A stretch of 64,000 bases of DNA from Verrucomicrobiota bacterium (GCA_020831625.1 JAFIGD010000017.1:1-64000); one strand, 5' to 3'; positions 248 to 58,916 are shown, counted from the first letter of the stretch. Notes: a model not told the origin generated them from the letters alone. Translations and numbers: made by a program.

Positions 248-478
248 CTACAGAAACCAATTTTCGACGGTCAGCCCGGGGATGCCTTCGAAGTGCCGTA
301 TATTTCCGGTGGCGACAATCAGGTTGTGGCGCAGTGCGGTTGCGGCAATCAAAATTTAGGAAATGGCGAGGCGATGATCGCCGAGAGAGGACCAGCGTCT
401 GACAACTTCCGGGTGAGGTCCGGGTTTTAGTCGCTGCGAATAAACGGAGGTGTCGAGGAGGTGAGTCAGCGTTTTCAT
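248..478 (-). pseudogene. VapC-like PIN-domain toxin, internally deleted
   Basis: Read on the minus strand from the ATG at 478, the frame gives a typical PIN N-terminus containing LLDTSVYSQRLKPGPHPEVV, with the conserved first acidic Asp. It hits a stop after about 40 codons (ending in LAIS). Immediately after this, another frame reads a typical PIN C-terminus, ATALRHNLIVATGNIRHFEG, then PGLTVENWFL and a stop at 248. Intact VapC proteins are about 130 aa, so roughly 60 central residues, including the middle acidic residues, are missing. This is a dead toxin gene. Its start overlaps the upstream remnant by four bases (ATGA), as is usual in vapBC pairs. Confidence 0.75.
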
Positions 479-640
479 GCCAGTGGATCTTCACGGTTGG
501 TGGCACCGTTTCGATCCGGCAGGTCAAGTTCTTCGGTAAGCGGGCCGTATTTCGCCTGGCATTCAGCCACCGTTCCCCAAACCGACTGTCTTGAATCCGG
601 CGTATGATATTGGATTATTCTAGCTGTCTGGCTGAAGATT
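475..640 (-). pseudogene. antitoxin remnant upstream of the vapC pseudogene
   Basis: The minus-strand frame ending in TGA at 475 overlaps the toxin ATG by four bases. It reads through about 50 codons containing VWGTVAECQAKYGPLTEELD and then DRNGATNREDPLA. There is no start codon or DNA-binding N-terminal domain before the frame closes, so only the C-terminal part of an antitoxin seems to be left. Identification rests on position and the overlap with the PIN fragment; the sequence is not diagnostic of a particular antitoxin family. The left boundary given is approximate. Confidence 0.4.
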
Positions 641-747: not shown

Positions 748-1980
748 TTACTCCGGAATTGCAACTCCGTTTTTCGGGCGGAGGAGTTTGTCGAGGAACA
801 TGGCATTCGCGAGAATCATGAGCACATCGAAGGGAAGGCGGAAACGGATGCGGGTGAAGAAGACGGCGGTGAGAAAAACATTGGTGATGATCAGAAGCCA
901 TAAGACTTTTTCGAAGGCGGAAAAGGGGCGGGTTTTTGTGAAAAAGGGACGGAACAAAAACAATCCCAGAAGCGGAGCCCAGGTGATGAACAGAACCGCG
1001 TCGCGAAAGCGACCGGTTTCGGATGCGGTTTCAAGCCGGTTTCGGAAATAGAAATAGTGTGCGGCTTTCCCCAGATAGAGCCGGAAAGCTTTGCCAGGGT
1101 GGGTTTGAATCCATTCCACGGCCAGATCCCGGTAGCGCCGGTCCCGATCCAGTTCGGGAAGCGATTGCATCTCCGGAAGAAGATGACTTCGTTCCACATT
1201 CACGCCGGAACCCGGGGTGGTGTTTTCCGAGTTCCCAAGGAATAAATTGAATCCTGAGTTGCTGGAAACCGGAACAAAGGCATCGAAGACCCGGAAATTA
1301 CGGGCGGACCAGGGCGCAACCACGGTCAGGGAGGCCAGCGCAAGCAGTGCGGTGCGTAAAAATCGCTGTTTAAACGGAGATTCCTCAAATAACAGGACCG
1401 CGAAAGCGAGAACCGGCGCTGTGAGCATAAAGGTGGGAATGCACAGAATGAGATATCCCAGCAACAGGCCGGCCAGCAGGGATTTCAGAGCCGATCCCTG
1501 AAAAAACATCAACATGAGAATCGAAACGAACAGAAAAGCGCCGAGGGTTTGCGGGTAAAGCGTGGCCGAGGTGAACAGCAGCACCGGATAGGCCAGGATC
1601 ATGAGCGGGGGCAGGGCCTGACAGCGGTGTCCCTGCTTTTTCATGATTCGGGAAAGCAGCAGCGCGGTGGCGGTCAGCAAAAGCGCCTGGATCAGTTTCA
1701 CGGAGCGGATGCCTCCGCCCGGACGGTAGACCGCCCAAAGGAAAAACGGGTATCCCGGGGGGCGGAAGGCGGTCAACTGCCCGTCCGGCGCGCGATAGCC
1801 CTCACCGGCCAAGAGCGACTCCGCGAGCTGATGGTAGTCGACCTCATCGGGGAAGCGGAGGGAGGCCGGACTGACCGCCGCAAGCCCCGCCGAACATAAG
1901 AACAGGAGGACAAGGCATGTTTTTGAGCTGGAAAGCAGGGCCTGAAGTTGTATGACAAGAGAATGCATCGATTTAATCAT
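748..1980 (-). CDS. GT39/ArnT-like membrane glycosyltransferase
   Basis: A 410-aa integral membrane protein with about ten hydrophobic segments. The first extracytoplasmic loop holds FPDEVDYHQLAESLLAGEGY (about residues 43-62), followed by FRPPGYPFFLWAVY. This is the acidic-loop signature of the GT39/PMT and ArnT superfamily, whose members use polyprenyl-phosphate sugars to glycosylate lipids or proteins on the outer face of the inner membrane. The acceptor cannot be told from sequence. The gene runs away from the glycosyltransferase set that starts at 2016, with only 35 bases between the two starts, so they probably share a promoter region. An O-antigen or lipid-modifying role fits the context but is inference. 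Confidence 0.75.
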   Translation of the reverse strand: MIKSMHSLVIQLQALLSSSKTCLVLLFLCSAGLAAVSPASLRFPDEVDYHQLAESLLAGEGYRAPDGQLTAFRPPGYPFFLWAVYRPGGGIRSVKLIQALLLTATALLLSRIMKKQGHRCQALPPLMILAYPVLLFTSATLYPQTLGAFLFVSILMLMFFQGSALKSLLAGLLLGYLILCIPTFMLTAPVLAFAVLLFEESPFKQRFLRTALLALASLTVVAPWSARNFRVFDAFVPVSSNSGFNLFLGNSENTTPGSGVNVERSHLLPEMQSLPELDRDRRYRDLAVEWIQTHPGKAFRLYLGKAAHYFYFRNRLETASETGRFRDAVLFITWAPLLGLFLFRPFFTKTRPFSAFEKVLWLLIITNVFLTAVFFTRIRFRLPFDVLMILANAMFLDKLLRPKNGVAIPE

Positions 1981-2015: not shown

Positions 2016-3131
2016 GTGAAAAAAATATTGGTGATGGAACCATTGCCGGGCGGACATCGGGAGCATTTTTTGAAAGCGCTTGCAGATGAAATCCGGCGAC
2101 GGAGCGACAGAGAATCCCAATATGTATTTGTGGTCGCTGAGTCATCGGAGATTGACTATCCTCCAAGGATCGCGGTGGACCGGGTGCCTGTGGCCGAAAC
2201 GGATCGGCTTTCGGGTTGGAACAAAAAACGTTCGATGGGCCGTCTTTTGGAGCAGCGGGTGCAAACGCACCAGCCGGATGAGGTTATCCTGCTGGAACTG
2301 ACCCAGTATGAATGGTCCCTGTTGTGGAAAAAAATTCCCGCCACGCTTTCCGCGATCGTTTTTGTGCAGCCGCCTCATATTTGCTCAAGGCTGAAACGGG
2401 AATTCAAATTTTTAAAAACCCGACTGCTGTTGTGCCGGAATGTATGGAGGACGTTGTATTTTTTGAACGGGGACGGCACCGCCAGGATCCTTCGGGAGCG
2501 TTTCAAACGTGTTCGAACGGAGTTTTCGGGCGTTCCCGACCCGGTGATTGAATGGGCGGAGGGGGTTGGGGCATCTGTGGATGTGGATGCCGGACGTTCC
2601 ACCGCACTTTATTTCGGGGCGGTTTCCCGGCGAAAGGGTTTCGGTGTGCTGGTGGACGCATTGTTGATGCTGCCCGTTTCAATTCAGAAACGCCTGGAAC
2701 TGGTGATTTGCGGGAAACCGGAGGATCCCGTCTATTTCTCCGATGAACTGAATCGGCTCCGGGGACATGGGGGCGCGCTGAAACTGACGGTGGAGGCCGC
2801 ATTTTTGGAGGAATTCCGGGTTAAGGCGTATTTTGAAGCCTGTGACTGGGTGTTGATGCCTTACACCCGGCCTGAATATTCGAGCGGAGTCCTTGGCCTT
2901 GCGGCCCGTGCCGGAAAGCCGGTTTTGGGACCGGAGGGGGGGCTTTTAGGCAGCTTGATTCAGGAATACGGGCTTGGACGGAGCTGCGCAATCACTCCTG
3001 ACTCTCTTAAAAACGAGATCGAAAAGGCGGTGACATCCGGAATTTCTTTCAACCGTGAACGGGCCGCGGTCTACGCGGGGGAAAGAACGCCGGAAGCCTT
3101 TGCCCGTATCTTATTGGGGAGGAACGAATGA
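2016..3131 (+). CDS. GT4-like glycosyltransferase
   Basis: A 371-aa cytoplasmic protein with a GT-B layout. The N-terminal Rossmann half starts KILVMEPLPGGHREHFLKAL. The C-terminal half has LYFGAVSRRKGFGVLVDAL (about residues 198-216), LVICGKPEDP, and near the end MPYTRPEYSSGVLGLAARAG (about 285-305), where GT4 enzymes bind the nucleotide sugar. In that last motif the usual E-x7-E pattern is only partly kept. It is the first gene of a run of overlapping plus-strand genes to 7274 and overlaps the next by four bases (ATGA). Its sugar donor is unknown. It probably adds a residue to the repeat unit of a surface polysaccharide. Confidence 0.75.
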   Translation: MKKILVMEPLPGGHREHFLKALADEIRRRSDRESQYVFVVAESSEIDYPPRIAVDRVPVAETDRLSGWNKKRSMGRLLEQRVQTHQPDEVILLELTQYEWSLLWKKIPATLSAIVFVQPPHICSRLKREFKFLKTRLLLCRNVWRTLYFLNGDGTARILRERFKRVRTEFSGVPDPVIEWAEGVGASVDVDAGRSTALYFGAVSRRKGFGVLVDALLMLPVSIQKRLELVICGKPEDPVYFSDELNRLRGHGGALKLTVEAAFLEEFRVKAYFEACDWVLMPYTRPEYSSGVLGLAARAGKPVLGPEGGLLGSLIQEYGLGRSCAITPDSLKNEIEKAVTSGISFNRERAAVYAGERTPEAFARILLGRNE

Positions 3132-4138
3132 AAAAGCCGCAACGTTCCCCCCCTGGTTTTTTTCACGACAGTTTGTCCGATTTTGATGAAATTTGCCGAT
3201 TAAACGCGCCGAAGGTATACCTTTACAAAGGGTTGCTGGATGTGAAGGTTAAAACAAAGCCTTTTCGGCAGATGCTGATTTTTTGGCGCCATCTCCGGTT
3301 TTGGTGGTACTTGATCCGTCACTCAGACGGGGATCAGGTCATTCTGGTGCGTGAGTTTTCCAATGTGCCGATGTGGATGATCAGCTTCGGGTGCCGGCGT
3401 GCGCTTCCCCGTTTGCTGCTGCTGAATCATCATAATCTCCAGTGGGCGCTGCATCGGCGCTGGAACCGAAGGGCGATGTGTGCTCTTCAAAGACGGGGCG
3501 CGAATTTTCTATTTTTTGAGTTTGTTCCCGAAATGGCGCTTAAAAAAATTGGAATGACCGAAAACGGCTGTTATGCGATCCGGCATCCTGTGAAGCCAAT
3601 GAGGGAGCGAAGGGGGGGGCCAGATCATGACGTCGGGTTTTTCGGAATTTGGAAGAATGACGGAGAGACTAAAGCGATGCTTCGGGCTTTATTGAATGAC
3701 CCCTCAGCTCCTAAAATTCTGATTGGGGCCCCGAATATCCAAGAAGCCCGCAACGATCTGGGTGATGAGGCGCGTTCGATGACATTCGTGAACACGGCGG
3801 CTCCTGAAATCTTCCATGCGACGATGCAAAGATGCCGGTGGATTTGCCTTCCTTACGCGAGGGAGACACACGAATATCGGGTTTCCGGCCTGCTGAGCGA
3901 CGCGGTGGCGAACCACGTTTCAGTGTTGATTCCTGATTATCCGATGTTAAGTGAGCAAATGAATTGGCCGGAGCCGACGGGCATGATGCTGAACGTTGAC
4001 GAAAAGCATTATCTTTCAAAGCTTTGTCTTTCTGAAAGCGGAATAGACTCCCAAGCTTTCCGTTTGCATTGCGAGGAACGTTCCGCACAGAAACTGGCCA
4101 AAACGCTTGAGGGTATTCTTGAAAACATCTCCAAATAA
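3128..4138 (+). CDS. putative glycosyltransferase, divergent
   Basis: A 336-aa soluble protein that is not firmly recognised. It is strongly basic and aromatic in its first 110 residues. Later it has DVGFFGIWKNDGETKAML (about residues 173-190), LIGAPNIQEARND and a C-terminal ICLPYARETHEYRVSGLLSD followed by VSVLIPDYP. That order resembles the donor-binding half of GT-B enzymes, where a strand-loop-helix with Y/S-x-SG precedes the C-terminus. It lies between a GT4-like gene (ATGA overlap) and a WecG-family gene, so a glycosyltransferase role is likely. This is inference from fold-level resemblance and context. No signal peptide or membrane segment is seen. Confidence 0.5.
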   Translation: MKKPQRSPPGFFHDSLSDFDEICRLNAPKVYLYKGLLDVKVKTKPFRQMLIFWRHLRFWWYLIRHSDGDQVILVREFSNVPMWMISFGCRRALPRLLLLNHHNLQWALHRRWNRRAMCALQRRGANFLFFEFVPEMALKKIGMTENGCYAIRHPVKPMRERRGGPDHDVGFFGIWKNDGETKAMLRALLNDPSAPKILIGAPNIQEARNDLGDEARSMTFVNTAAPEIFHATMQRCRWICLPYARETHEYRVSGLLSDAVANHVSVLIPDYPMLSEQMNWPEPTGMMLNVDEKHYLSKLCLSESGIDSQAFRLHCEERSAQKLAKTLEGILENISK

Positions 4139-4877
4139 CATTCAGATTTTGAATTTGAAAATTGCCGACCTGACCTTGACAGAGCTTTTGGGCAGGCTCA
4201 GAGAGCTTGCCGTGCAACCGGGCGTATCGATTGTAAACTATGCAAATGCCCATGGATGCAATTTAAGTCTTAAAAACAGGGATTTTCAGCAGGCCATGTC
4301 GGAGGCGGATATTGTCTTTTGCGATGGGGTTGGGGTCAAAATCGGAGCCCGAATTCTGGGTACACCGCTGAAAGACCGGATGACGCCGCCGGATTGGATT
4401 GATCGATTTTTTCAACAATGTGTCGATGACCGGGCAAGTGTCTATTTTATCGGAGAAAGAGAGGAGGACTGTCGAAGGTTTTATGAGACCGTTCTGCGGA
4501 ATCATCCCGACCTGAAGGTGGCCGGAAGCCATCATGGGTATTTCCAGTTCGACTCAGAAGAAGAGGTGCTGTTGGTTTCCGAGTTGAACCGATTGCGCCC
4601 ACATTTCATCCTCACCGGCATGGGAATGCCCAAACAGGAGCTGTGGGCGCAGAGAATGAAAAACCTTGTTCAATCCGGCGTGATTCTTTCCACCGGCGCT
4701 CTTTTTCTTTGGTACGCCGGAAAAGAAACAAGGCGGCGGAATTTTTTAACCGACAACGGTTTCGAGTGGCTGTTGCGTTATTTGCGGCATCCCGTGGCGC
4801 ATTTCCGAAGGTACATCTTAGGGAATCCGTTGTTCATTTTCAGAATCTTGAAGCAGAAAGCGGGACTTGCCGTATGA
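4107..4877 (+). CDS. WecG/TagA/CpsF family glycosyltransferase (GT26)
   Basis: A 256-aa protein with the family hallmarks: VNYANAHGCNLS, then EADIVFCDGVGVKIGARILG (about residues 71-90), then TPPDWIDRFF, VYFIGEREEDCRRFYETVL and the glycine-rich ILTGMGMPKQELWAQ. Characterised members transfer ManNAcA, ManNAc or glucose from a nucleotide sugar onto a polyprenyl-linked acceptor at the inner membrane. The start is TTG at 4107, which overlaps the upstream gene by 32 bases; a second TTG at 4119 is also possible and no ATG is available. It ends in an ATGA overlap with the polymerase gene. It is one of the early-acting enzymes expected in an EPS or O-antigen locus. Confidence 0.9.
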   Translation: MRVFLKTSPNNIQILNLKIADLTLTELLGRLRELAVQPGVSIVNYANAHGCNLSLKNRDFQQAMSEADIVFCDGVGVKIGARILGTPLKDRMTPPDWIDRFFQQCVDDRASVYFIGEREEDCRRFYETVLRNHPDLKVAGSHHGYFQFDSEEEVLLVSELNRLRPHFILTGMGMPKQELWAQRMKNLVQSGVILSTGALFLWYAGKETRRRNFLTDNGFEWLLRYLRHPVAHFRRYILGNPLFIFRILKQKAGLAV

Positions 4878-6349
4878 AGAGTAATATTGTTTTAACCGTT
4901 TTACTCAGCACATTATTTGTGGTTGGCGCAGTGTTTTTTCTGATTTCAAGAGGAATGGCCATGTATTTAATGGCTCTTCCGGCGATTCCGGCAGGAATCT
5001 ATTTGTTGAATAAGCCCAAATTTCTGTACGGGGCGATCATCTGTCTGCCCTTCAGCCGGATTACGGTTCCGGGACTGCCAGGTTCACTCTACCTTTTCCA
5101 TTTATTTTTGCTTTTTGCGTTCGGAACCGGATTACTCAATAACGCTATACAGAAAAACAACAGACGTGGATTTTCATTAGCCCAAAAATCAGCGATGCTG
5201 TTTATGTTAAATATATTTGTTATCATGTATTTCCGGGGGGCCGGTCTGCGGATATTCGGGGGGGATCAATGGGGGGGAATGCGGTATGTTGAGCTTTTGA
5301 CACCCTTTTTGCTCCTTTTTCTGAACCCTCCATTTGTTTATTCTACTAGCGAATGGAAGCGCATCATGATTTTGTTCATGATCTTCAGTGCGCTTCCCTT
5401 GTTTTCGGAGATCGTATTTCTGGCGTCCGGAGGTAGATTGTACCATTTATATTATGTTATAAAATTCAATATGAGTACTTTTAACAGTTACCTTGCCGAA
5501 ATGAGAGGTGCTGATGTTGTGCGTTTTCAAACCGCAAATAGACTCGCTCCATTTGTTATTATCGCTTCATTAGTTTTATATCGCATGAAAACAAAGTCTA
5601 TTTTCTATGTGGTTTTATATATATTTGGAGTGCTTCTTGTTGGGATATCCGGACATCGTTCGGTTTTTATTGATCTGGTGTTTTTAAGCTGGGTGACGTT
5701 TTTAATCAGTTTTTGGAAGCAACGGTGGGTTTATTTTCTGGTGTCTTTTTTTGGAGGACTGGTGGTGATTGGAAGTGTTTACCTTTTTGCAGCCGATTTA
5801 CCGACAAACTTCCAGCGAGCGATTTCATTTCTTCCTGGGATCTCGATCAGTGAAGCGGCCCGAATGGATGCAATGATTACGATCGACTGGAGGCTTAACC
5901 TTTGGAATGAGGGGCTTACAGAGTTGCAACTTAACCCTATGTACTTGATCTTAGGGAAAGGATTGACGTATTCTGCAGCTGAATATATGGCGCTTCAGCT
6001 TTTTGATTTTCATTACTGGTGGGCCATTCTCACTTCGAATTACCATCAAGGTGTTTTGAGTCTGTTAATTATTACGGGAACCCCCGGACTTTTGTTCGTT
6101 GTCAGCTTTTTCGGGTTTACTATCAATGAATCGATTAGGAACGTGAGGAAAATGATTCGGATACCATTTATAACAGATTTATACCTCCTTTTAGTCCTTT
6201 ATTTCATTTTGTTGGTCTTTAAATATTTCGTTGTTTATGGTGACATGACCTCCTCCTTCATACCGATTTGTTATACCGCATTCCTGCTCAAACAACTACA
6301 TTTGACCTACAGAGAAGAAGTCAGGCTCAATGAAACCACAAAGACTTAA
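4874..6349 (+). CDS. O-antigen ligase/polymerase-like membrane protein (Wzy-like)
   Basis: A 491-aa protein with roughly eleven transmembrane segments. A large loop after residue about 305 contains RWRL-type basic residues (IDWRLNLWNEGLTELQLNP) and, later, YHQGVLSLLIITGTPGLLF. GISGHRSVFIDLVFLSW in the centre is the Arg-containing motif often seen in O-antigen ligase/polymerase family proteins. The ATG at 4874 overlaps the stop of the GT26 gene as ATGA; an upstream in-frame start at 4643 would lie deep in that gene and is not credible. The protein probably polymerises undecaprenyl-linked repeat units in the periplasm. The family also contains ligases, so polymerase is inferred from context. 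The gene is AT-rich compared with the later part of the window. Confidence 0.75.
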   Translation: MKSNIVLTVLLSTLFVVGAVFFLISRGMAMYLMALPAIPAGIYLLNKPKFLYGAIICLPFSRITVPGLPGSLYLFHLFLLFAFGTGLLNNAIQKNNRRGFSLAQKSAMLFMLNIFVIMYFRGAGLRIFGGDQWGGMRYVELLTPFLLLFLNPPFVYSTSEWKRIMILFMIFSALPLFSEIVFLASGGRLYHLYYVIKFNMSTFNSYLAEMRGADVVRFQTANRLAPFVIIASLVLYRMKTKSIFYVVLYIFGVLLVGISGHRSVFIDLVFLSWVTFLISFWKQRWVYFLVSFFGGLVVIGSVYLFAADLPTNFQRAISFLPGISISEAARMDAMITIDWRLNLWNEGLTELQLNPMYLILGKGLTYSAAEYMALQLFDFHYWWAILTSNYHQGVLSLLIITGTPGLLFVVSFFGFTINESIRNVRKMIRIPFITDLYLLLVLYFILLVFKYFVVYGDMTSSFIPICYTAFLLKQLHLTYREEVRLNETTKT

Positions 6350-7274
6350 ACCCATCCTTATAACAGGTTCTCATCGTTCAGGAACGACCTGGGTAGGAAG
6401 AATGCTGGCGGAAAGTCCCGGGGTGGCTTATATTCAGGAGCCGATGAATCCCGGGCACCGCCGGGGGGAGTGTCGCGCGGATTTTGGTGCATGGTTTCCA
6501 AAATTGGATGAAAAGAGCGGCGCGGGTTTTGTGAGGGATTTACAGGATTGCCTGTCGTTTCGGTATGATCTTCGCGCGGCCTGTACCGGTGCGCAAGGAA
6601 TCAAACCTTGGCTCCGAATACCCTATGATCAATGTCGGTGTTGGTGGCATCGCTGTCTTAGGACGCGCCCTTTGATGAAAGATCCGATTGCGCTGTTGTC
6701 TGCGGAATGGCTGGCCCGGCAATTTGATATGGATGTGATTATCATGATCCGCCACCCGGCGGCCTTTGTCGGGAGCCTGAAACGGACAGGATGGAACTTC
6801 CCCTTTCAAGATTTGGTGCGACAGGGGGTCTGTCTTCAAGAATCTCTCCGGAAATTTCAGGTGGATGTGGAGCGTTTTGCCAGGGAACCTCAGGACGTCG
6901 TTTCGCAGGGAATACTTCTTTGGAATCTCTTCCACACCGTCATCCGGGACTATCAACTCCGCCATCCTGAGTGGAATTATGTGCGCCACGAGGATCTATC
7001 CTTAGATCCGCTTCAAGGGTTTGAAGCTCTTTTTCATGCGGTCGGGCTTGATTTTAGTGACACGGTGAGGCGAAAAATTGAATGCTCGACGAAAGCAGTT
7101 CACTCAGGTCAAGAAGCCCTGCACAGCGTTCAGCGGGACAGTCGGAAGAATGTGGATTCCTGGCGGAAACGTTTGGAACTCACTGAAATTGAACAGATAC
7201 AATCGGGTACGGTGGAATTAGCAGTGTATTTTTACGGTGAAAATTTCATTTTTCATAAAACACCTAAAGACTAA
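6330..7274 (+). CDS. sulfotransferase family protein
   Basis: A 314-aa soluble protein. The N-terminal P-loop-like 5'-PSB motif is TGSHRSGTTWVGRMLAES (about residues 12-29). The 3'-phosphate-binding segment IIMIRHPAAFVGSLKRTGW follows at about 134-152. Both are hallmarks of PAPS-dependent sulfotransferases. EPMNPGHRRGE after the P-loop resembles the bacterial carbohydrate sulfotransferases. It overlaps the polymerase gene by 20 bases and is the last plus-strand gene of the polysaccharide locus, meeting the minus-strand genes tail to tail. It probably sulfates a sugar of the polymer or its precursor. Substrate is inference from location. Confidence 0.85.
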   Translation: MKPQRLKPILITGSHRSGTTWVGRMLAESPGVAYIQEPMNPGHRRGECRADFGAWFPKLDEKSGAGFVRDLQDCLSFRYDLRAACTGAQGIKPWLRIPYDQCRCWWHRCLRTRPLMKDPIALLSAEWLARQFDMDVIIMIRHPAAFVGSLKRTGWNFPFQDLVRQGVCLQESLRKFQVDVERFAREPQDVVSQGILLWNLFHTVIRDYQLRHPEWNYVRHEDLSLDPLQGFEALFHAVGLDFSDTVRRKIECSTKAVHSGQEALHSVQRDSRKNVDSWRKRLELTEIEQIQSGTVELAVYFYGENFIFHKTPKD

Positions 7275-7282
7275 TCGTCTTT
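7266..7282. terminator. small hairpin over two convergent stop codons (possible terminator)
   Basis: AAAGAC (7266-7271) and GTCTTT (7277-7282) form a six-pair stem with a five-base loop. The stem-loop covers both stop codons where the plus and minus halves of the polysaccharide locus overlap by four bases. There is no long T-tract, so efficient termination is uncertain. Confidence 0.3.
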
Positions 7283-8221
7283 ATAGGGATAACCGACGGA
7301 TTTCAGATCCAGTTTAAATCGTTCTGCAACCATTCGGTTTCCTTTTCCGTAAATGGAGTCAACGGCTTTTCGTTCGTCGGGCGTCAAAGGTTGAGTAAGT
7401 TGCTTTGACAAATATGACCAGAACTCCCCCGGAAGTGTTTTTTCCGATATTTTCAAAAATGATTTTCCCATAGGAAAACGTTGAATTTTTCGAATCCACC
7501 GCCGATCACGGTGCCAACCACTGGCAGAGGTGTTTGACGGGTTCAATTTTTCCTTGTGAGCCTTATTGAGAAGCGTTGAATTTGAAATACCGAGTAGGTT
7601 TCCTATATCGGAAATAAATCTGACCGGGTTTTGAATAAAATCTTCATACAGAAAAACATGTATATTTTCCTCTCCAAAGAGCGAACTGTATGTATTTAAA
7701 ACTCTTTTGTAATCCAGCGCTTTTGCAAAACCTCTCTGCTCTCCTATTACGCATGTATTTAGATACTTTTTCCATGAAAGCTCCGGAACAAAATAACTGT
7801 GATAAGAAGGCAGCAAACTATATTGACTTCGAAGGGTAATAATAATTTGTGGGGGGGTGTTTTTGTCTTCTGTCAGGCTGCTGAAATAGGTGAAAATCCG
7901 TGAAGCGGTGTCTTCAATATTATGCCCTTCGCTTTCAAAACCTTTACCGTACCGGGTGTTTCGAACAAAACCCTCCTGAGATATCAGGACCTTTGAACAC
8001 CCACAGTTTGTAATTTCTTTTAATAATACGTCCTTTTCATTAAGAGCCTGGTCAAACAAGTCTCCACCTAAAAGAAGAGCCTGCTCAAGGCGCTTTATGT
8101 TTTCAGCAGAAAACGGCTTTCCCAGATAGTACAATGAATCCGCATTTTGAAACAATGTCCGTTGCAGGGTTGTTGTTGCTGTTTTAGGGTATCCGATGTG
8201 AATAAAATAAATGGGTTTCAT
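7271..8221 (-). CDS. sulfotransferase domain protein
   Basis: A 316-aa protein starting MKPIYFIHIGYPKTATTTLQ, where GYPKTATTTLQ (about residues 9-19) is the PAPS 5'-phosphosulfate loop of the sulfotransferase superfamily. A second conserved segment, IIITLRSQYSLLPSYHSYF (about 126-144), corresponds to the 3'-phosphate-binding Arg/Ser region. It differs from the other two sulfotransferases here, so it is not a recent duplicate. The stop overlaps that of the upstream plus-strand sulfotransferase. It is the last gene of the minus-strand run that starts at 12478. Composition is AT-rich. A polysaccharide or glycolipid substrate is likely but unproven. Confidence 0.8.
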   Translation of the reverse strand: MKPIYFIHIGYPKTATTTLQRTLFQNADSLYYLGKPFSAENIKRLEQALLLGGDLFDQALNEKDVLLKEITNCGCSKVLISQEGFVRNTRYGKGFESEGHNIEDTASRIFTYFSSLTEDKNTPPQIIITLRSQYSLLPSYHSYFVPELSWKKYLNTCVIGEQRGFAKALDYKRVLNTYSSLFGEENIHVFLYEDFIQNPVRFISDIGNLLGISNSTLLNKAHKEKLNPSNTSASGWHRDRRWIRKIQRFPMGKSFLKISEKTLPGEFWSYLSKQLTQPLTPDERKAVDSIYGKGNRMVAERFKLDLKSVGYPYKDD

Positions 8222-8223
8222 TA

Positions 8224-9537
8224 TTAAACTTTAAGGTTGAATGATTTTAACTCTTTGTAAATTGAATGTAAGCGAAAAAACAAAAATAAGGACAAAAATT
8301 GTATCCTGAAAACCGGCCGCATCTCTTTGACCGCTGCCGTGAGAGCGAATGTGCAGAAAAACTGTGAGCATACTGTTGCGATGGCGGCACCGGTTCCTCC
8401 CAAATGCGGTATCAACAGCGCATTTAAAGATAGATTGACAGCACTGCCGACCATAGAGGAGATAAGAGAGATTTTAAAGCCTCCTCTCCCCACAATATCA
8501 ACATTCCTAGCTACACCTTGGAAAACAAACACACAACTCCAAATATGAATTTGAAGGATGATGGACGCAGAGGCATAAGCTTCTCCAAAAATTGTGCGAA
8601 CAATCCATGGAGCCATTAGACACATGGGTGTTGCGATCAGGTAGGCAATCCCCGTGTTGAAATCCATATAGGACTGCATCCTTTTCCAATAAGCCTGGGC
8701 GCTCTTTTTTCTCGCATGTAATATGGGCGGAGTCAATGAAGATGCCAGTAACATTGGGATAACATACCAAAGACTGCTTAAACGAGAGGCTGCCGCATAT
8801 TCACCCACAGCGATTTCGCCCTGCATGGATTTCAGCATCACTTGATCCATTCGTAAATAGAGATTGACCGCAAATCCGTTTAAAATCAATGGCCATGATT
8901 GTTTGAGTAATCCTTTTGCCATTTCTTTCGAGACGGTCCATTTCCTGATAGATTGAACATGTTTTGAATACAATCCCGCAAGCATCAGGCCGATAAAGGT
9001 GTTTTCAAGTAAGAAGATAACCGCAAAAACTAGAAGATCGGCGCCCAGTCGAATGGCGATTAATTTCAATATCGCTGAAAGAATAACCGGTATGGTGGTA
9101 GAAAAAACGACATATTTTGACTGGGTATGCGCGTCGAACCAAATATTTATGCACCGAAATGAATCGGCAATCAGGATGGCACCGAATGCCGTAAATAAAC
9201 CTCGTTCAACAGGTGATGTTGGTAAAGAATAAACCAACAACAGTAGAATCCCGTAAATAATAGTCCCTGCAAACACGTTTAAAAAAAAGGCGGTTCCAAG
9301 AACGGTCTGTTGTGATTCAGGTTCTTCAATACAACGCTTTCTCAGAACTCCTGTCAGGCCAAGATTGCCAAGATTCTGAAGTAAGAGCACAACAGAAAGC
9401 ACATAGTTATATGCTCCATATTGTCCAGGTCCCAAATATCTGGCCACCCACGCGGACGCCACCAGCCCGACTCCCATGCGGATTGATTGACCTCCGAAGA
9501 GCCAGAGTGTGTTTTGGGCGTAGCGATTTTTTAACAT
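8224..9537 (-). CDS. oligosaccharide flippase (Wzx-like)
   Basis: A 437-aa protein with 12 or more predicted transmembrane segments, opening NTLWLFGGQSIRMGVGLV and ARYLGPGQYGAYNYVLS. The ARYLGP-x-(E/Q)YG motif is typical of the first helix pair in Wzx/polysaccharide biosynthesis flippases of the MOP superfamily. Such proteins move undecaprenyl-linked repeat units across the inner membrane. It ends two bases before the start of the sulfotransferase at 8221, so the two are co-transcribed. Together with the Wzy-like protein at 4874 it points to a Wzx/Wzy-dependent pathway. No ABC transporter genes are visible. Confidence 0.88.
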   Translation of the reverse strand: MLKNRYAQNTLWLFGGQSIRMGVGLVASAWVARYLGPGQYGAYNYVLSVVLLLQNLGNLGLTGVLRKRCIEEPESQQTVLGTAFFLNVFAGTIIYGILLLLVYSLPTSPVERGLFTAFGAILIADSFRCINIWFDAHTQSKYVVFSTTIPVILSAILKLIAIRLGADLLVFAVIFLLENTFIGLMLAGLYSKHVQSIRKWTVSKEMAKGLLKQSWPLILNGFAVNLYLRMDQVMLKSMQGEIAVGEYAAASRLSSLWYVIPMLLASSLTPPILHARKKSAQAYWKRMQSYMDFNTGIAYLIATPMCLMAPWIVRTIFGEAYASASIILQIHIWSCVFVFQGVARNVDIVGRGGFKISLISSMVGSAVNLSLNALLIPHLGGTGAAIATVCSQFFCTFALTAAVKEMRPVFRIQFLSLFLFFRLHSIYKELKSFNLKV

Positions 9538-9564
9538 ATTTTTTTGTAAATGAGGATGTATATT

Positions 9565-10260
9565 TCAAAAAATATATTTAAATCGTTCCATATCTTTTTG
9601 GTATAGATTGGTAACAATTATTTTTTCGTCTGTATTATAATATGATTTATAGTCTCGATTTCGTTTCGATTGATTGAGCCTCGGTGGTTTTGATATAGTT
9701 GTTTCTGTTATCGATTCGATATATTTCAGCCCTTTATCAATTTCTTCAACTTTCCCCACAAAATCCATGTTGTCTATATGGTATTTAGGATTATGGTATG
9801 TGCTGCAATGGTGAATAATATTTTCGAGTTTCTTATCATAGATTTCTTCAGAAGAGTCATAGTAGACTGTGTGGGTATCAATGTGAGTCCATTCAAGAAA
9901 GCGAAGAAATGTTAAAAAGGAATCAAACAACGGCTTGAAAACTTTATAATGCGAAAACATCAGATATGCCGACAGTACCCTATCATAAGGATTCCTGACA
10001 AAAGTGAACTTGAACGACTGGTCCCACAGATGGTCAGGAATCAACTCCCGTCCGGTTCGATTAGGATAGTCCCCAGGCCGGGCTGAGCATGAAATTATTT
10101 TGGGATTCGTCTCAAAATTTTTGATCAGACTGGTACCCGCGCATTTATGGATATGCATATAAATTGCTTTGATTTGGGTCCGGTTCATTTGAATGCGTTG
10201 AGATCCTAAATCCGGATTTTTTCCTCGGAAATTGCTAAATTTATACGGAATATTCTTCAT
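9565..10260 (-). CDS. sulfotransferase family 2 protein
   Basis: A 231-aa protein with IYMHIHKCAGTSLIKNFE (about residues 33-50), the HK(C/T)AGTS PAPS-binding loop of the sulfotransferase-2 (HNK-1/chondroitin type) family. FKFTFVRNPYDRVLSAYLMF follows, the RNPYDRxxS 3'-phosphate motif. The ATG at 10260 gives a short N-terminal extension; a second in-frame ATG at 10188 would also keep all motifs. The gene is very AT-rich and sits 27 bases upstream of the flippase. In animals this family sulfates chondroitin- and HNK-type glycans; bacterial members usually sit in polysaccharide loci. It is the third independent sulfotransferase in this locus. Confidence 0.85.
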   Translation of the reverse strand: MKNIPYKFSNFRGKNPDLGSQRIQMNRTQIKAIYMHIHKCAGTSLIKNFETNPKIISCSARPGDYPNRTGRELIPDHLWDQSFKFTFVRNPYDRVLSAYLMFSHYKVFKPLFDSFLTFLRFLEWTHIDTHTVYYDSSEEIYDKKLENIIHHCSTYHNPKYHIDNMDFVGKVEEIDKGLKYIESITETTISKPPRLNQSKRNRDYKSYYNTDEKIIVTNLYQKDMERFKYIF

Positions 10261-10293
10261 TGTGCGGTTTTTGGGATGTCGATTGATTTTTTG

Positions 10294-11433
10294 TCAAATT
10301 GGCTGTTGGAGTAACCCGTTCAGAATAGATGCAGACGTGATTTTATCGATACACTGCGAAGTGTCAAACACGCAGTTCCAGTTACAAGAGTAGCAGGGGA
10401 GGCGTTCTGCGATCCAGTGTTGATTAGAGGAAGTGAACCAGGGCGCAAAATAATCATAATGTCCCCCGCCCAGAATGCACACCATAGGAATGTCCAGAAT
10501 CGTGGCGATATGTGCGGGCGCAGATTCCATGCAGAGGAGCTGTGTAGATTGCTGAATACGTTTGGCCGCATCCAGGATGGAGGCCGGATACTCAATGTTC
10601 ACCGGATGAGGTGACTGAAGCAGGCTTTGAAATTTACGGAGATCCGCTTCATCGTCTCGGGTTCCGAACACTGTGACCCGGAAGTCAGGTCTCACCCTTA
10701 AAAATTGGTTTACAGTTTCAGAGAGTTTTGGAAGCGGATAGTTCCGCAACCGTGAGCGGGTAACGGGGAAGACTGCCAACTCCGGAGGGGCGTTACGCTT
10801 AATCACCTGCAGATTGAGAAAAGGCATGCAGTCTGATTCCAGAAGCGGAGAGTCGATCAAAGCGTTCACCACCGCAAGATGCGCATGAACTTCCAGCGGA
10901 AGCTGCCCACGTTCGGTGGGATAAACCGGGGCATGATTAAATCTGTAGGTCCTGTAGCGGTCGGGAGTGGGGGCCGGCATAGGCGTGTCATGGATACCCG
11001 AAGAAATTTCCGGATGGAGCCAATTCAGCAGAACATGGTCCATTCCCGTTAAAGAGTGACGCAGACAAACGAGAGTCCCCACCCGATGAGACCGGCAGAA
11101 GCAACGAAGAGAGCAGATTTTTGCGAAGGCGTTGCTTGAATTGCCTCGATTTGAGCCTTGCAAAACAATCAGGATCAGATCAGGAAATAAATGTTCGGCG
11201 AGATCCTTCACTTGGGGGGAGCAAATCAACCCCCATGGCCCCGGGGCTCGTTTGATGAGTTGGCGAATCACGCCACCCGCCAAAAGAAAATCCCCGATGG
11301 CATCCGGTTTGTAAATGAGGTGGATCTCCCTTGCAGACTTTTTTTTATGGGGTTTGCATGAGAATAGGGCTTTTTGAAAAACCCGATACATCCATCCTTT
11401 GATCAGCTTTTCGGGATTAGGAAATAAATTCAT
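10294..11433 (-). CDS. glycosyltransferase family 9 (heptosyltransferase-like)
   Basis: A 379-aa protein. The N-terminal half has IHLIYKPDAIGDFLLAGGVI (about residues 37-56), matching the GT9 start with its conserved GD. The C-terminal half has FGTRDDEADLRKFQSLLQ, the characteristic SAPAHIATILDIPMVCILGG (about 303-322), and then a cysteine-rich tail with CYSCNWNCVF. GT9 enzymes add heptose or related sugars to LPS core or autotransporter-like proteins. It overlaps the gene upstream by 17 bases. The Cys-rich end is common in GT9 proteins of LPS and EPS clusters. Sugar specificity is unknown. Confidence 0.85.
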   Translation of the reverse strand: MNLFPNPEKLIKGWMYRVFQKALFSCKPHKKKSAREIHLIYKPDAIGDFLLAGGVIRQLIKRAPGPWGLICSPQVKDLAEHLFPDLILIVLQGSNRGNSSNAFAKICSLRCFCRSHRVGTLVCLRHSLTGMDHVLLNWLHPEISSGIHDTPMPAPTPDRYRTYRFNHAPVYPTERGQLPLEVHAHLAVVNALIDSPLLESDCMPFLNLQVIKRNAPPELAVFPVTRSRLRNYPLPKLSETVNQFLRVRPDFRVTVFGTRDDEADLRKFQSLLQSPHPVNIEYPASILDAAKRIQQSTQLLCMESAPAHIATILDIPMVCILGGGHYDYFAPWFTSSNQHWIAERLPCYSCNWNCVFDTSQCIDKITSASILNGLLQQPI

Positions 11434-12478
11434 ACAATAAATCTCTATTTTTAGCCGCCTTCTGAGCTAAATTATCCAGGATCATTTTCGATACTGTTTT
11501 AAAAGGCAAATGTTGAAAGGTCATAAGATTTTTTGATAATTTTGAGGGTGTTATGATATCAAGCTGCAGTTCCTCGCAAACCGTCTGGATTTTACTGGAC
11601 CGGTTGATGCCAAGGCATTGACAGCCCAACCAAGCACCCATCAGGAGACAATGATAACGTGAAGAAGCTAGCCGGTCAATCACGGTGAAAACTTCGGTGA
11701 AATTTTCAGTTTTTGACGTGAAGTATCCGGGCGTGACCAGTGTGGGATTCTGATGCGCCAAGCACGAACCGGACAGAATTCCGAATGTTTGAAATGTATT
11801 AATCTCGGATCCTTTTAAGTTTCGAAATTCATTCGAAAGAAACACCAATTTATGTTCTCGATTTATTCTTTTAGCCTTTAGATAAATATTTAGTAGTGAA
11901 AGATAGTTGAGTTTTTCATTATATACATTCAGGGCTAACTCATAGAGTTTATCCGGTTGAAGGGATGATTTGGAACTGATATTTTTCAAACAAACATGAG
12001 CCAGGTCCGCCGTAGGCTCAAGACGGGTGCTGGGTATATCAAAATGATTCGTCAAAAATGTAAAGGCGTTTTGGTCTCTGGTGGTGATTAGATTAATGCG
12101 AGTGATGATTTTTTGAAGCCGTTCTTGATACCGGATCGATTCAGCTTCGACTCCGACACCGATCAGGGCCACCCTGATGTTTTGGGGCAGGGTCAGAATG
12201 TCCTCTTCCATTTGCCGTATGAAGTAATCGCCGGAAAGACTTTGAAATGGAGTGTCACCGACACCCAGCCAATATTCATAAGCGGGTTCCTGCTCGTGTG
12301 GCAGCAGCCAAAGGACTGCCGGGAATCGGCGTTTAAGGGTTGCAAGACGACAGGTATCGGTGACCCCAAAAAGAGATAACTCTTTGGGACACAGGCTAAG
12401 AAACCCCTCCAACATTAGGTCGTCGCCCACGTTTCCGGCACCATAGAAGCGAAAACCAAGTTTTGCGTATATGTTCAT
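11417..12478 (-). CDS. polysaccharide pyruvyl transferase family protein
   Basis: A 353-aa protein with the family N-terminus GFRFYGAGNVGDDLMLEGFL (about residues 8-27), the GN-x-GD nucleotide/phosphoenolpyruvate region. WLGVGDTPFQS and VALIGVGVEAESI follow, the latter being the usual GxGxE/S motif. Family members ketalise polysaccharide sugars with pyruvate from PEP, as CsaB and WcaK-like proteins do. It is the first gene of the minus-strand run and is divergent from the CotH gene across a 227-base AT-rich spacer that must hold promoters for both. Pyruvate ketals would add negative charge to the same polymer the sulfotransferases may act on. Confidence 0.8.
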   Translation of the reverse strand: MNIYAKLGFRFYGAGNVGDDLMLEGFLSLCPKELSLFGVTDTCRLATLKRRFPAVLWLLPHEQEPAYEYWLGVGDTPFQSLSGDYFIRQMEEDILTLPQNIRVALIGVGVEAESIRYQERLQKIITRINLITTRDQNAFTFLTNHFDIPSTRLEPTADLAHVCLKNISSKSSLQPDKLYELALNVYNEKLNYLSLLNIYLKAKRINREHKLVFLSNEFRNLKGSEINTFQTFGILSGSCLAHQNPTLVTPGYFTSKTENFTEVFTVIDRLASSRYHCLLMGAWLGCQCLGINRSSKIQTVCEELQLDIITPSKLSKNLMTFQHLPFKTVSKMILDNLAQKAAKNRDLLYEFIS

Positions 12479-12705: not shown

Positions 12706-15700
12706 ATGCTAAAGTCTTGGTTTTGCTTCACTATTCTCCTTTACGGCCTTGTTTTTTTGGGCAAAAGCATGGCTGCTTCTGTCAGAATCAACGAGGTAAT
12801 GTCTTCCAACGGCGTGACGATCGCGGATGAGGATGGGGATTTTGAGGATTGGATTGAGCTATACAACTACGGTTCAGAGGAGGTTGATTTGTCCGGATGG
12901 GGCTTGTCAGATGACTATGATTCTCCTTTTAAATGGGTATTTCCGGAGGGCACTTTCCTTGAGCCCGGGGGCTTTTTACTGGTTTGGGCTTCGGGTAAAG
13001 ACCGGATTTCCGGAGAACTTCACACAAATTTCTCGATTTCTCTTTCGGGTGAAGAAGTTTTGTTAAGCCTGCCAGACGGTTCCATGGTTGATCTGTTAGA
13101 ACCCAGGATTATTCCCCGGGATGTTTCTGTGGGACGGGTTGAGGGTGAAGGGGATATCTGGTTTTACTTTGATGAGCCTTCTCCGGGAAACCCTAATAAA
13201 GGAGCTACGTTCTATGGAATCTTGGAACCTCCACTGTTTTCACACTCATCTGGGTTTTATAACTCTCTAGAAAGTCTAAGTTTTGATGCACCCCTGAATG
13301 CCTATGTTTTTTATAGCTTAAACGGTTCTGTTCCCGGACCAGAGTCACTTGTCTCCACCTCTGATTTCCATAAGTCATTTAACTATATCGATCCAATTGA
13401 CCTTATGGCATATGTGGATCGCGAAAATTTATTTTCTGAAATTCCGACAAACACATTAACATATTCCTGGCTTCCTTTGTGGGCACCCCCTGCGAATTTT
13501 GTCTATAAAGCAGTTGTTGTTAGGGCTCGTTCGTTTAAGGAGGGCTATCTTCCAAGTCCGGTGGTTACAGCCACCTATTTTTTGGGAGAGGATGTGTATC
13601 AAATCTACGGTGATTTGCCGATCATCTCACTGGTCTCAGATTATGAAAACCTATTTTCTCCTGATAGCGGGATCTATGTCCCTGGTCCGGAACCTCAGGA
13701 TATTAAAGATCAGAATTTTTTCCAAGGATGGAATCGGGATGCACATTTGACTTTTTTTGAGTCATCTCGTCGGGTGGGCTTTGAAGGCGATTTCTCGATA
13801 AGAATCCAAGGGGGCAGCTCCCCCGCTAGTCCCCTAAAAGGGCTGCATGTAATTTCAAGGCCCTGGTTGAGCGGAGAAACGCTAAATTACCCTTTATTTG
13901 CCGGACGGAGTGGACGTGCATCCGAGGTGGAAACCTTTCGACGTTTTATTTTACGAGGCTGGGGAAGTGCGCTTAACTGGCCTGTTTTCTTCTCTGATGC
14001 TTATCATCAGCAACTCGCAGTGGATACAGGTCAGGATATTCAGCACTACCGACCTGTTGTTGTGTTTATCAATGGAGAATATTGGGGCTTGCAGGAAATC
14101 AGAGAATATAATCGATGCATTGGGTATCTGCGAGAGCATCATGATTTGTCAAAAAGTGATGAAATCGATGTTATTAATCGGCATGGCGCATCTGAAGGCG
14201 ATCTTGAAGAATGGACCCGATTCATCACCTTCCTTGAGTCTAATGACTTAAGCTTGGAGGAAAACTATGAAATGGTGAGTGAGATGATGGATGTTGATAA
14301 TTTTATCGATTATATTGTTCACTCTACTTACACCGGTAAGCGGGACTGGCCCGGGCAAAATGAAGCGTGGTGGCGAGCTCGGAAGGAAGGCGCAAAATGG
14401 AGATGGATCCAATTTGATATGGACCATGGACTGGGTACTTTTTGGTCTTTTCCTGAACACAGTATGATTGAACAGGTCGTTAACGGACGAGGTAGCCGTG
14501 GGCCTCATCCCGTTTTGGTAGCACTGCTTGAAAATGATAAGTTTAAAAAGCAGTTTGTCCTGAGATATACTGATTGGATGAACAGTTATCTTTCCCTTGC
14601 CCGTGAGAAGTCCGTTTTTCAGGCACTTTCCGATGAGTTGTATCCTTATGTTGCTGAACATGAAGCCCGCTGGCCTTTTGATCAGGAGTGGGGCCACGGC
14701 CAGACTTTAGCACGCGACATTTTTCAACGAAGAGCCGCTTTAAGACCCCTTCAATTGCAAGATACCCTTGGGCTACAATCTCTCTGGAGCTTAAATCTTT
14801 TTGCGAATAACGTTTATGGAAATCTTTCGATAAACAGCCTTCTCCTTGATAACCGTATGGTTGGCTTCAATATAAACAAAAATACGCCCTGGGTAGGGAA
14901 TTATTATGAAGACTATCCCGTGACGATTACGGCCATACCCAAACCGGGCCACCGGTTTGCGGGGTGGGTGGTGTCGGGTGCGGGGGCGATGGGGGAGATG
15001 AGTGAGGGAGCACCGGAATTTTACTCGACGGAGCCGGTGATTGCGTTGTCTCTGTCGGAGGATACGAATGTTGAGGCGGTGTTTGAGCCGATTCCTCTGA
15101 TTGAATTGCCGGTGGCGGTTCATGTGTGGGACTTCGAGGATGCCGTGAGTCTGCTGGCTCCTTCGTTTACCCTGGGCGGCGGGGTGCTTTCGATTGCGCC
15201 GGGTGGGGGGACGGTGATCGAGGAAAACACGGGCGGGGACTTTGAATCGCAACATCTGCGGGTGAACAATCCCTTGGGGGCGGTGATGACCTTTGCGCTG
15301 CCCACAAGCGGGTATGAGCAGATCACGCTCGATTTCCTGACCCGCCGCTCGGGGCAGGGGGCCGGGCTGATGTCGGTGGAATACACCACGGACGGAGTCT
15401 CCTGGAGTGCCAAGGACACGGTCACGGTGTTTAACGCTCCGCCGCAACCGCAGTCGTTTGACTTCAGTGCCGTGGAGGCGGTGAAGGATAATCCGAATTT
15501 CGCGGTCAGGGTTTCGTTTGCCCAGGGGGCCGGGGGCACTGCGGGCAACAACCGCTTTGATGACGTGGTGCTGTCCGGCATCGCGCTGCCGGGCACAAAT
15601 CAGCCGCCGGTGGTTCAAGAAGAGGCGGTTCCCGAGTTTTTGGGGCTGACGTCGGCGGGGGCGGTCACGTCCTTTCATCTAAATGACTGGTTTACAGATC

Positions 15701-25584: not shown

Positions 25585-25658
25585 AGGCGTTTTTGAACCG
25601 GGGAAATTACGAAAATTTCTCGACAAAGCGGGATCGGAATGACTTTAATGCGGCGCTT

Positions 25659-27143
25659 ATGGAGACAAACGAAAAGACCCCTGTGTATTTGGCTGTTGAT
25701 TTGGGTGCCGGTTCGGGCCGGGTGATCGCCGGGATTTTGGAACCGGAGGGCCTCCGTCTGGAGGAGGTGCACCGGTTTGCGAATGAAGGCGTGAAACTGG
25801 TGGACACCTGGCACTGGAACACCACCGGATTGTATGCGGATATTCTCAAGGGGCTGACCCTGGCGGGGGACCGCTACGGGGACCGGGTGCGCAGTCTGGG
25901 CGTGGACACCTGGGGCGTGGATTACGGACTGCTGGATTCGGCCGGATCGCTTTTGGGACTCCCGGTGCAGTACCGCGACGGACGCACGGACGGGATCATG
26001 GACGAGGCGTTCGCGAAGATGCCGTCGAAGGATCTGTATGCGGCCACGGGAAATCAGTTCATGTTTTACAACACGCTGTTTCAGCTCATGGCGGAATCCA
26101 GGCGGAATCCGGGACGGCTGGCGGCGGCGGACACGCTGCTGTGGATGCCGGATTTGCTGGGGTACTGGCTGACGGGGAAGGCCTGTCAGGAATCCACCAT
26201 CGCCAGCACGGGACAGCTCGTGGACGCGCGCACCGGGGAGTGGGCGTGGGATGTGATTGACCGCATGGGGCTGCCGCGAACGCTGTTCGGCCCTCTGACC
26301 CGGCCGGGCACGGTGCTGGGGGATTTGTTGCCGGAGGTCGCGGAGGCGACCGGGTTGAAGGCGCGGGTGGTGACGGTCGGGGGGCATGACACCGCGTCGG
26401 CGGTGGCGGCGGTTCCGTCGACCGACGGCAACAGCGTCTATTTGTCCTCGGGGACCTGGTCGTTGCTGGGCGTGCTGACGCCTTCGGCGGTGGTGAATGA
26501 GAACAGTTTTGATTTGGCCTTCACCAATGAGGGCGGGGTGGCGGGGGATATCCGTCTGCTGAAGATTCTGTGCGGGCTGTGGCTGATTCAGGAGTGCAAG
26601 CGGGAATGGGAGGCGAAGGCGGGCGGGGAACTGAGCTGGGAAACGCTGATTGCCGAGGCGGAGGCGGCGGAGCCGTTTGTGTCGCTGGTGGATCCGGATC
26701 ATGCGGATCTGGTCGCGCCGGGGGATATGCCCGCGCGGCTGGGCGCGGTCTGCCGAGCGGCCGGCGAGCCGGTTCCGGCCACGCGGGGCGCGGTGACCCG
26801 GATGATTTTTGAAAGCCTGGCTTTGAAATACCGGCTGGTTTTCGAGAAACTGGAGACTCTGACGGGGCACGGGCTGGGCGCCTTTCATATTGTGGGCGGC
26901 GGAAGCCGCAACGCGCTGCTGAATCAGTTCGCCGCCAATGCCCTGAACCGCGACGTGGTGGCGGGTCCGGTGGAGGCGACCGCGGCCGGAAATATTCTGC
27001 TGCAGCTGGTCGCGGACGGTGCGGCGCCGGATCTGAACGCCGGGCGGGATTTGATCCGCCGCTCCTTTGATGTGCAAACCTTTTCGCCTCAAAACCCGGA
27101 CGCCTGGGCGGCGCAGCTGCCGCGGTTCCGGGCGCTGCTGTGA
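25659..27143 (+). CDS. rhamnulokinase-type FGGY sugar kinase
   Basis: A 494-aa FGGY carbohydrate kinase. The N-terminal phosphate loop VYLAVDLGAGSGRVIAGIL, then SLGVDTWGVDYGLLDSAG, VTVGGHDTASAVAAVP, VYLSSGTWSLLGVL and the C-terminal GGGSRNALLNQFAANALNRD with GPVEATAAGN follow RhaB closely. RhaB phosphorylates L-rhamnulose at O1. The gene sits 57 bases before an L-fucose isomerase gene and no rhamnose isomerase is present, so it may act on L-fuculose here. The ATG at 25659 is preferred over an in-frame start at 25593, because the first conserved strand starts within ten residues of it. No aldolase is seen in the window. Confidence 0.88.
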   Translation: METNEKTPVYLAVDLGAGSGRVIAGILEPEGLRLEEVHRFANEGVKLVDTWHWNTTGLYADILKGLTLAGDRYGDRVRSLGVDTWGVDYGLLDSAGSLLGLPVQYRDGRTDGIMDEAFAKMPSKDLYAATGNQFMFYNTLFQLMAESRRNPGRLAAADTLLWMPDLLGYWLTGKACQESTIASTGQLVDARTGEWAWDVIDRMGLPRTLFGPLTRPGTVLGDLLPEVAEATGLKARVVTVGGHDTASAVAAVPSTDGNSVYLSSGTWSLLGVLTPSAVVNENSFDLAFTNEGGVAGDIRLLKILCGLWLIQECKREWEAKAGGELSWETLIAEAEAAEPFVSLVDPDHADLVAPGDMPARLGAVCRAAGEPVPATRGAVTRMIFESLALKYRLVFEKLETLTGHGLGAFHIVGGGSRNALLNQFAANALNRDVVAGPVEATAAGNILLQLVADGAAPDLNAGRDLIRRSFDVQTFSPQNPDAWAAQLPRFRALL

Positions 27144-27200
27144 TGACGAATTTTAATGAATGATGAAGAACCCCAACCTTAACCCCGGAATTCAAATCCC

Positions 27201-56470: not shown

Positions 56471-56559
56471 TCTTGTTGAATTCCTTTTCGTAATCGTAAT
56501 CGTAATCGTTATCGATGTGCAAGAATGACCCTGATGCCGTTGAAACAGGAGTGTATACA

Positions 56560-58862: not shown

Positions 58863-58916
58863 ACAGCCTGGAAAGGCTGTCCTCCATGTGTAGCAATCTG
58901 ACCTTACACCGTCGCC

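Follow-up and report, generated by a model that had tools for sequence, protein, structure and literature searches.

A Wzx/Wzy-type locus predicted to make a sulfated, probably pyruvylated surface polysaccharide in a Verrucomicrobiota bacterium

We analyzed a stretch of 64,000 nucleotides (hereafter the window) from a Verrucomicrobiota bacterium (GCA_020831625.1, JAFIGD010000017.1:1-64000), in which positions 2016-12478 quite likely form a Wzx/Wzy-type surface-polysaccharide locus for a sulfated, probably pyruvylated acidic polymer, with sulfation well supported and pyruvylation less so. Ten intact genes are arranged there in two convergent blocks, which overlap by 4 bases where they meet (7271-7274). 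The plus-strand block encodes, in this order, a GT4-family glycosyltransferase (GT), a glycosyltransferase-like protein (GTx), a GT26 enzyme, a Wzy-type membrane protein, and the sulfotransferase ST1, while the minus-strand block, from 12478 downward, encodes a PF04230 protein, a GT9 enzyme, the sulfotransferase ST3, a Wzx flippase, and the sulfotransferase ST2. The genes named in the original prediction for this DNA are all present as intact open reading frames, as are the sulfotransferase motifs that it listed, although the positions attached to these motifs (6330, 7271, and 9565) are in fact the low-coordinate ends of the genes. The window covers bases 1-64000 of contig C6 (87.5 kb) in a genome of 4.9 Mb (111 contigs, 96% completeness), and the data suggest that the organism belongs to the Kiritimatiellae (Verrucomicrobiota).

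Three divergent sulfotransferases in one locus

ST1, ST2, and ST3 each carry a 5′-phosphosulfate loop for binding 3′-phosphoadenosine 5′-phosphosulfate (PAPS), namely GSHRSGTTW on the plus strand and GYPKTATTT and HKCAGTS on the minus strand, respectively, followed in the correct order by a motif of the 3′-phosphate-binding type. When profiles of the three families were searched against the PDB, almost all matches were sulfotransferases. The ST1 family matched tyrosylprotein and CurM sulfotransferases (best E 2.3e-12), the ST2 family matched 3rnl (E 2.4e-37) and otherwise sulfotransferases, and the ST3 family matched heparan sulfate 6-O-sulfotransferases (E 4e-11) and 2-O-sulfotransferases (E 6e-10). 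As a lone query, ST2 matched 3rnl with an E of 0.003, the family score being boosted by closer 3rnl relatives in the alignment, and single-sequence PDB searches with ST1 and ST3 returned chance matches only. Residue H77 of ST3, located between the two PAPS motifs, is invariant in the ST3 alignment, and its column matches the GH and LHA histidines of 4ndz and 5t03. In the animal heparan sulfate 2-O/6-O enzymes, this histidine is the catalytic base.

The three enzymes had been described as unrelated. Comparing the separate family alignments profile to profile, we found that the ST1 family matches the ST2 family with 95% probability over 97 columns, and no convincing match was obtained between the ST3 and ST1 families. 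By these profiles the three proteins are highly divergent, with at least two of them, the distant relatives ST1 and ST2, demonstrably related; hence, the number and the divergence held up, but "unrelated" was too strong.

Our searches recovered a total of eight sulfotransferases in the genome. Chance clustering of those in the locus was rejected, as three of eight random sites fell within 4 kb in only ~0.01% of the simulations. No close DNA relative was found on plasmids and no ST3 relative on viral contigs. The ST3 family, PF03567, occurs in 54 of the 388 genomes of the phylum, and so the enzyme is not rare.

Other sulfation genes were seen outside of the locus. In the same genome, a fused GT2-sulfotransferase gene faces an adjoining second PF04230 gene (L015:13329-15946, contig C94), making another sulfation/pyruvyl-type pair. 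Very large sulfotransferase-matching proteins, beside or fused to ABC-transporter ATPase sequence, are encoded at L019:16188-19580 (C65) and L021:9554-12610 (C80), which are apparently ABC-type glycan loci with sulfotransferases.

The sulfate donor

Judging from its gene content, the organism can make PAPS. CysC is encoded on contig C97 (TIGR00455, E 1.6e-58), an operon-like run of CysH-CysD-CysN genes lies on contig C102, and CysN, CysD, and CysC all score above subfamily or equivalog-domain cut-offs. The original prediction had pointed to PAPS synthesis genes elsewhere in the genome as a check, with the absence of adenosine 5′-phosphosulfate (APS) kinase speaking against it, and CysD, CysN, CysC, and CysH were all found. 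The APS kinase gene, which stands outside of the ST1-ST3 locus, ends a run of GT4, GT2, and membrane-protein genes and adjoins an aconitase gene (L024, C97, 6062-13284).

A conserved scaffold with variable sulfotransferase content

To place the locus among its relatives, the Wzy protein was used as a query and found homologs in 43 of the 346 genomes of the class; Wzy neighborhoods of up to 20 kb were compared from nearly all of the genomes with a relative. Two loci from the same family as the window genome, L088 (genome G010) and L040 (G006), are syntenic with the window and share its convergent layout, which rules out a scaffold unique to the window genome. Common to all three are GT4, GTx, GT26, Wzy, GT9, a PF04230 gene, and Wzx, with 34-57% identity to the window for GT4, GTx, GT26, Wzy, and GT9. 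In L088, the GT39-like gene and an extra gene of 185 aa precede GT4, GTx, GT26, and Wzy, and the convergent part holds GT9, PF04230, and Wzx; no sulfotransferase was found in this locus. In L040, GT4, GTx, and GT26 follow an initiating transferase and are themselves followed by an FkbM methyltransferase, Wzy, and a PF03567 sulfotransferase, and the convergent part consists of GT9, PF04230, a PF13469 sulfotransferase, and Wzx. Gene order inside the minus-strand block differs between the window and these relatives. In addition, BLAST did not match the window PF04230 gene to its counterparts in L040 and L088, or the window Wzx to that of L088, meaning that different sequences fill these positions.

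At least one sulfotransferase was detected in five of the eight same-family Wzy loci: three in the window genome (G000), two in G006, and one each in G009, G004, and G005, the one of G009 scoring just under the Pfam cut-off. No sulfotransferase was detected with local profiles in the 34 Wzy loci of other families. In a Pfam scan of 144 unassigned neighbor proteins from these other-family loci, the 25 families with the most matches included no family of sulfotransferases; as the lowest count among the 25 was 3, at most two of the 144 proteins match any one sulfotransferase family. PF04230, by comparison, was matched by nine of them. With two positives assumed for the other-family loci, Fisher's test gave a p of 0.0012 for the difference with the same-family loci, a value that is only indicative because related genomes are not independent, the neighborhoods differ in size, and contig ends truncate some of the loci.

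Since their number varies on a shared scaffold, the sulfotransferases resemble interchangeable add-ons to an assembly line that is itself conserved. A further-reaching and rather speculative proposal, which we consider improbable as it stands, would treat the locus as one allele in a set of exchangeable "sulfation types": one family of the class would gain and lose different sulfotransferases, between none and three of them, on its conserved Wzx/Wzy scaffold, so that the sulfate pattern of the coat varies among its species much as serotypes do among pathogens, and the three-enzyme version would make a glycosaminoglycan-like polymer in a cell that also degrades foreign sulfated glycans.

Two further observations were made around these loci. 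In G010, ST2-like, PF13469, and PF03567 sulfotransferases lie within 6.5 kb of each other at L042 (C34, 3898-10186), while the syntenic Wzy locus of that genome has none. A large lamin-tail/CotH-kinase protein is encoded after the locus in the window (12706-19419), and similar genes (L091:1-3065 and L089:18419-19901) flank the loci of two genomes of the same genus. Because a gene of this kind was also seen in the other-family locus L096, we do not claim a common chromosomal site from its presence beside the G000, G004, and G005 loci.

Polymerization and export

The open frame of the Wzy gene extends from 4643, but homology begins only at ~4874. The window protein itself has no Pfam match; PF04932 is matched by nine of 14 members of its family, and the family profile matches the polysaccharide polymerase/ligase 7tpg. 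The position of the gene beside Wzx favors a polymerase as the probable function.

A number of observations weigh against a sulfated-polymer pathway of the Wzx/Wzy type. The locus encodes no initiating transferase, no nucleotide-sugar gene, no Wzz/Wzc, and no export (OPX) protein, and the PF04932 and 7tpg matches do not separate a polymerase from a ligase. PAPS reductase is also present in the genome; therefore, PAPS synthesis is necessary but not specific, and it is no proof of sulfation. ST2 falls under the Pfam cut-off, and its single-sequence structure prediction had a predicted local distance difference test (pLDDT) score of 37, so low that the model was not used.

Some of the lacking parts are encoded elsewhere. 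The genome has three PF02397 initiating transferases; that of C102 shares 71.5% identity with the transferase that flanks the G005 locus and 60% with its G006 counterpart. Two OPX export proteins (PF02563) are encoded on C58 and C59. The predicted Wzx/Wzy-type locus for a sulfated surface polymer thus stands as far as gene families, scaffold conservation in relatives, and PAPS-synthesis genes go, all of them read from sequence, but as an incomplete unit with its initiating transferase and export proteins at other sites.

It is conceivable, if rather unlikely, that the Wzy-type protein is an O-antigen ligase, or that the product is the O-antigen of lipopolysaccharide (LPS) or a short lipid-linked glycan with decorations, in which case the sulfate would be carried by LPS and not by a secreted capsule or exopolysaccharide. 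Rhizobia are known to have sulfated LPS, PF04932 is itself named "O-antigen ligase", 7tpg is a polymerase/ligase, and a locus without a Wzz/Wzc or OPX gene would suit such a product. In many loci of the class, on the other hand, Wzy is accompanied by Wzx and a number of GTs, an arrangement that suits a polymerase at least as well, and the OPX proteins encoded elsewhere in the genome argue in the same direction.

It is also possible, though we give it about one chance in three, that the polymer is a substrate of just one or two of ST1, ST2, and ST3, with the rest, ST2 especially, sulfating another acceptor or being recent non-functional arrivals. ST2 is the most divergent of the three and sub-threshold, it has no close relative in the 388 genomes of the phylum, and sulfotransferase content varies among the syntenic loci. 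In Synechocystis, moreover, the loss of XssE, one of the two xss sulfotransferases, did not substantially alter bloom formation or the amount of exopolysaccharide (PMC8205485). The ST2 gene nevertheless has an intact frame with both PAPS motifs kept, and lies a few bases from its neighbors, which fits better with a working member of the locus.

The pyruvyltransferase-like gene

The gene at 11417-12478 matches the full-length PF04230 profile with 31.1 bits (cut-off 25.3). It scores 38.3 bits (E 9e-10) against the CsaB equivalog, far from the cut-off of 213.1, and was therefore classed as PF04230 only and not as CsaB. A C-terminal histidine is kept in all eight of the aligned family members. From these data, the pyruvylation that had been predicted is plausible and somewhat favored: the match is above its cut-off, but it is a single moderate one, and the PF04230 genes of the syntenic relatives differ, as described above.

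The polymer might instead be only sulfated, with the PF04230 gene making no pyruvate ketal, which we hold to be the less probable case. PF04230 is a broad and mostly untested family, and the moderate match, the low CsaB score, and the lack of any detectable similarity to the L040 and L088 genes would all agree with it. The coverage of the full profile, the histidine, and the occurrence of PF04230 genes in the syntenic loci too speak for pyruvylation of the polymer.

Locus layout and genomic context

The coordinates of the genes are listed in Table 1. The GT39-like gene upstream is taken as a member of the locus because of its synteny with L088. As the contig starts within repeats, 747 bases ahead of this gene, further locus genes may lie beyond its end.

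Table 1 Genes of the locus and the evidence for their assignment (3′-PB, 3′-phosphate-binding motif).
Feature	Coordinates	Strand	Evidence
GT39/PMT_2-like membrane glycosyltransferase	748-1980	-	Upstream, divergent; PF13231 sub-threshold, E 0.0027; 49% identity over 397 aa to L088:4444-5676
GT4-family glycosyltransferase	2016-3131	+	PF00534 E 8.6e-6, just under cut-off; L088 and L040 syntelogs ~40% identical
GTx, glycosyltransferase-like	3128-4138	+	No match in Pfam or NCBIfam; same-position genes of L088 41% and L040 34% identical
GT26, WecG/TagA/CpsF family glycosyltransferase	4107-4877	+	PF03808 E 6.4e-42; syntelogs 57% and 41% identical
Wzy-type polymerase (or O-antigen-ligase-like) membrane protein	4874-6349	+	Syntelogs 43-46% identical; family profile to 7tpg E 1.2e-6
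Sulfotransferase ST1	6330-7274	+	PF13469 E 2.5e-11, above cut-off; PAPS loop 6366-6392, 3′-PB 6747-6779
Sulfotransferase ST2	7271-8221	-	PF00685/PF13469 E ~5e-4, below cut-off; PAPS loop 8168-8194, 3′-PB 7802-7834
Wzx flippase	8224-9537	-	PF01943 E 1.8e-26, PF13440 E 6.6e-14; Wzx of L040 32% identical
Sulfotransferase ST3	9565-10260	-	PF03567 E 5.9e-12, above cut-off; PAPS loop 10129-10149, 3′-PB 9964-9999
GT9-family (heptosyltransferase-like) glycosyltransferase	10294-11433	-	PF01075 E 1.5e-5, above cut-off; syntelogs 43% and 36% identical
PF04230 polysaccharide-pyruvyltransferase-like protein	11417-12478	-	PF04230 E 2.9e-7 across the full profile

The block from 4107 to 12478 has a guanine-plus-cytosine (GC) content of 44%, compared to 60% in 19700-64000, and ST3 reaches only 36%. 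Low GC is frequent in surface-polysaccharide loci, and the value found here fits with gene exchange without proving it.

At the very start of the contig, the window contains about three tandem copies of a GC-rich unit of ~46 bases (1-140, ggggcaggggtaggggagaccacggatggaagaccgcagatgctgt), a repeat that likely caused the assembly break. Further on (~250-600, minus strand), a remnant was noticed by eye that resembles the terminal part of a VapC-type PIN-domain gene, with a stop in its frame and a short antitoxin-like open reading frame ahead of it; the two look like a decayed toxin-antitoxin pair.

The sulfatases that the organism was said to carry as well are indeed encoded later in the window, and no link between them and the polymer of the locus was found. 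Together, the regions 25593-28985 and 56515-63338 encode an FGGY kinase, an L-fucose isomerase, a GH3 enzyme, and two sulfatases, a set that fits, as expected, with a degrader of fucose-containing sulfated glycans.

Proposed pathway and comparison with known systems

In the pathway that we propose, an initiating transferase encoded elsewhere would start an oligosaccharide on a lipid carrier in the cytoplasm, and GT26, GT4, GTx, GT9, and possibly the GT39-like enzyme would extend it. ST1, ST2, and ST3 would add sulfate from PAPS at different positions, and the PF04230 enzyme would probably add a pyruvate ketal with phosphoenolpyruvate as the donor. Wzx would then flip the repeat unit, Wzy would polymerize it, and an export protein encoded elsewhere would carry the polymer out, giving a strongly acidic capsule, exopolysaccharide, or O-antigen. 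We infer the sulfated sugars, the action of all three sulfotransferases on one polymer, the pyruvate, the order of the steps, and the cell-surface fate of the product from the genes and their relatives; published loci of this type that yield a sulfated product support the proposal (PMC8205485, PMC11766843, PMC11641403).

If the proposal is true, the locus would give a bacterial group noted chiefly for breaking down sulfated polysaccharides a clearly delimited candidate pathway for making them, and the variants, whose related scaffolds carry between none and three sulfotransferases, would be natural material for testing the role of each enzyme. Bacterial relatives of the heparan sulfate 2-O/6-O-sulfotransferases could also serve in the production of sulfated glycans without animal sources.

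The statement that few bacterial loci of this kind are described proved only partly true, as several comparable clusters have been published, one of them for a polymer with sulfate and pyruvate and one from Pontiella. Among the closest is the xss cluster of Synechocystis 6803, which makes synechan, a polysaccharide in which sulfate was measured. Like the present locus, xss combines Wzx and Wzy with sulfotransferases from distinct subfamilies, and its export protein is encoded outside of the cluster; unlike the present locus, it is cyanobacterial, has two sulfotransferases, and contains its own regulators and priming transferase (PMC8205485). Similarly, the wps-1 cluster of Actinoplanes missouriensis combines Wzx/Wzy with sulfotransferases of different families, one of the heparan-sulfate type, but it belongs to an actinomycete and a sporangium polymer, encodes two sulfotransferases instead of three, and the sulfation of its product is presumed (PMC13390465).

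The polymer of Cobetia marina KMM 1449 carries sulfate and minor pyruvate, and the Cobetia capsule clusters have sulfotransferase and pyruvyltransferase genes as the window does, although their export is by an ABC transporter and their PAPS genes lie inside the cluster (PMC11766843). Vibrio KMM 8419 has both PAPS genes and sulfotransferases, and its capsule is sulfated (PMC11641403). On pSymB of Sinorhizobium meliloti (CP140883, L052), GTs and a gene annotated as a pyruvyl transferase are found within a few kb of a PF03567-type homolog of ST3 (~25% identity), but this stretch has ABC and type I secretion genes, and no Wzx/Wzy pair is annotated in it.

Within the Kiritimatiellae, Pontiella both degrades and makes sulfated polysaccharides, and a candidate cluster has been described. 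The putative sulfated glycosaminoglycan cluster of P. sulfatireligans F21 resembles the window in having a sulfotransferase among GTs in a sulfatase-rich degrader that makes a sulfated exopolymer, and differs in having one PF13469-type sulfotransferase and no mention of a pyruvyltransferase (PMC7356697). We therefore judge that the kind of locus is known, from a few cyanobacteria, marine proteobacteria, an actinomycete, and Pontiella, and that what sets the present one apart is the presence of three divergent sulfotransferases in a compact Wzx/Wzy locus, together with natural variants whose related scaffolds hold from none to three such enzymes.

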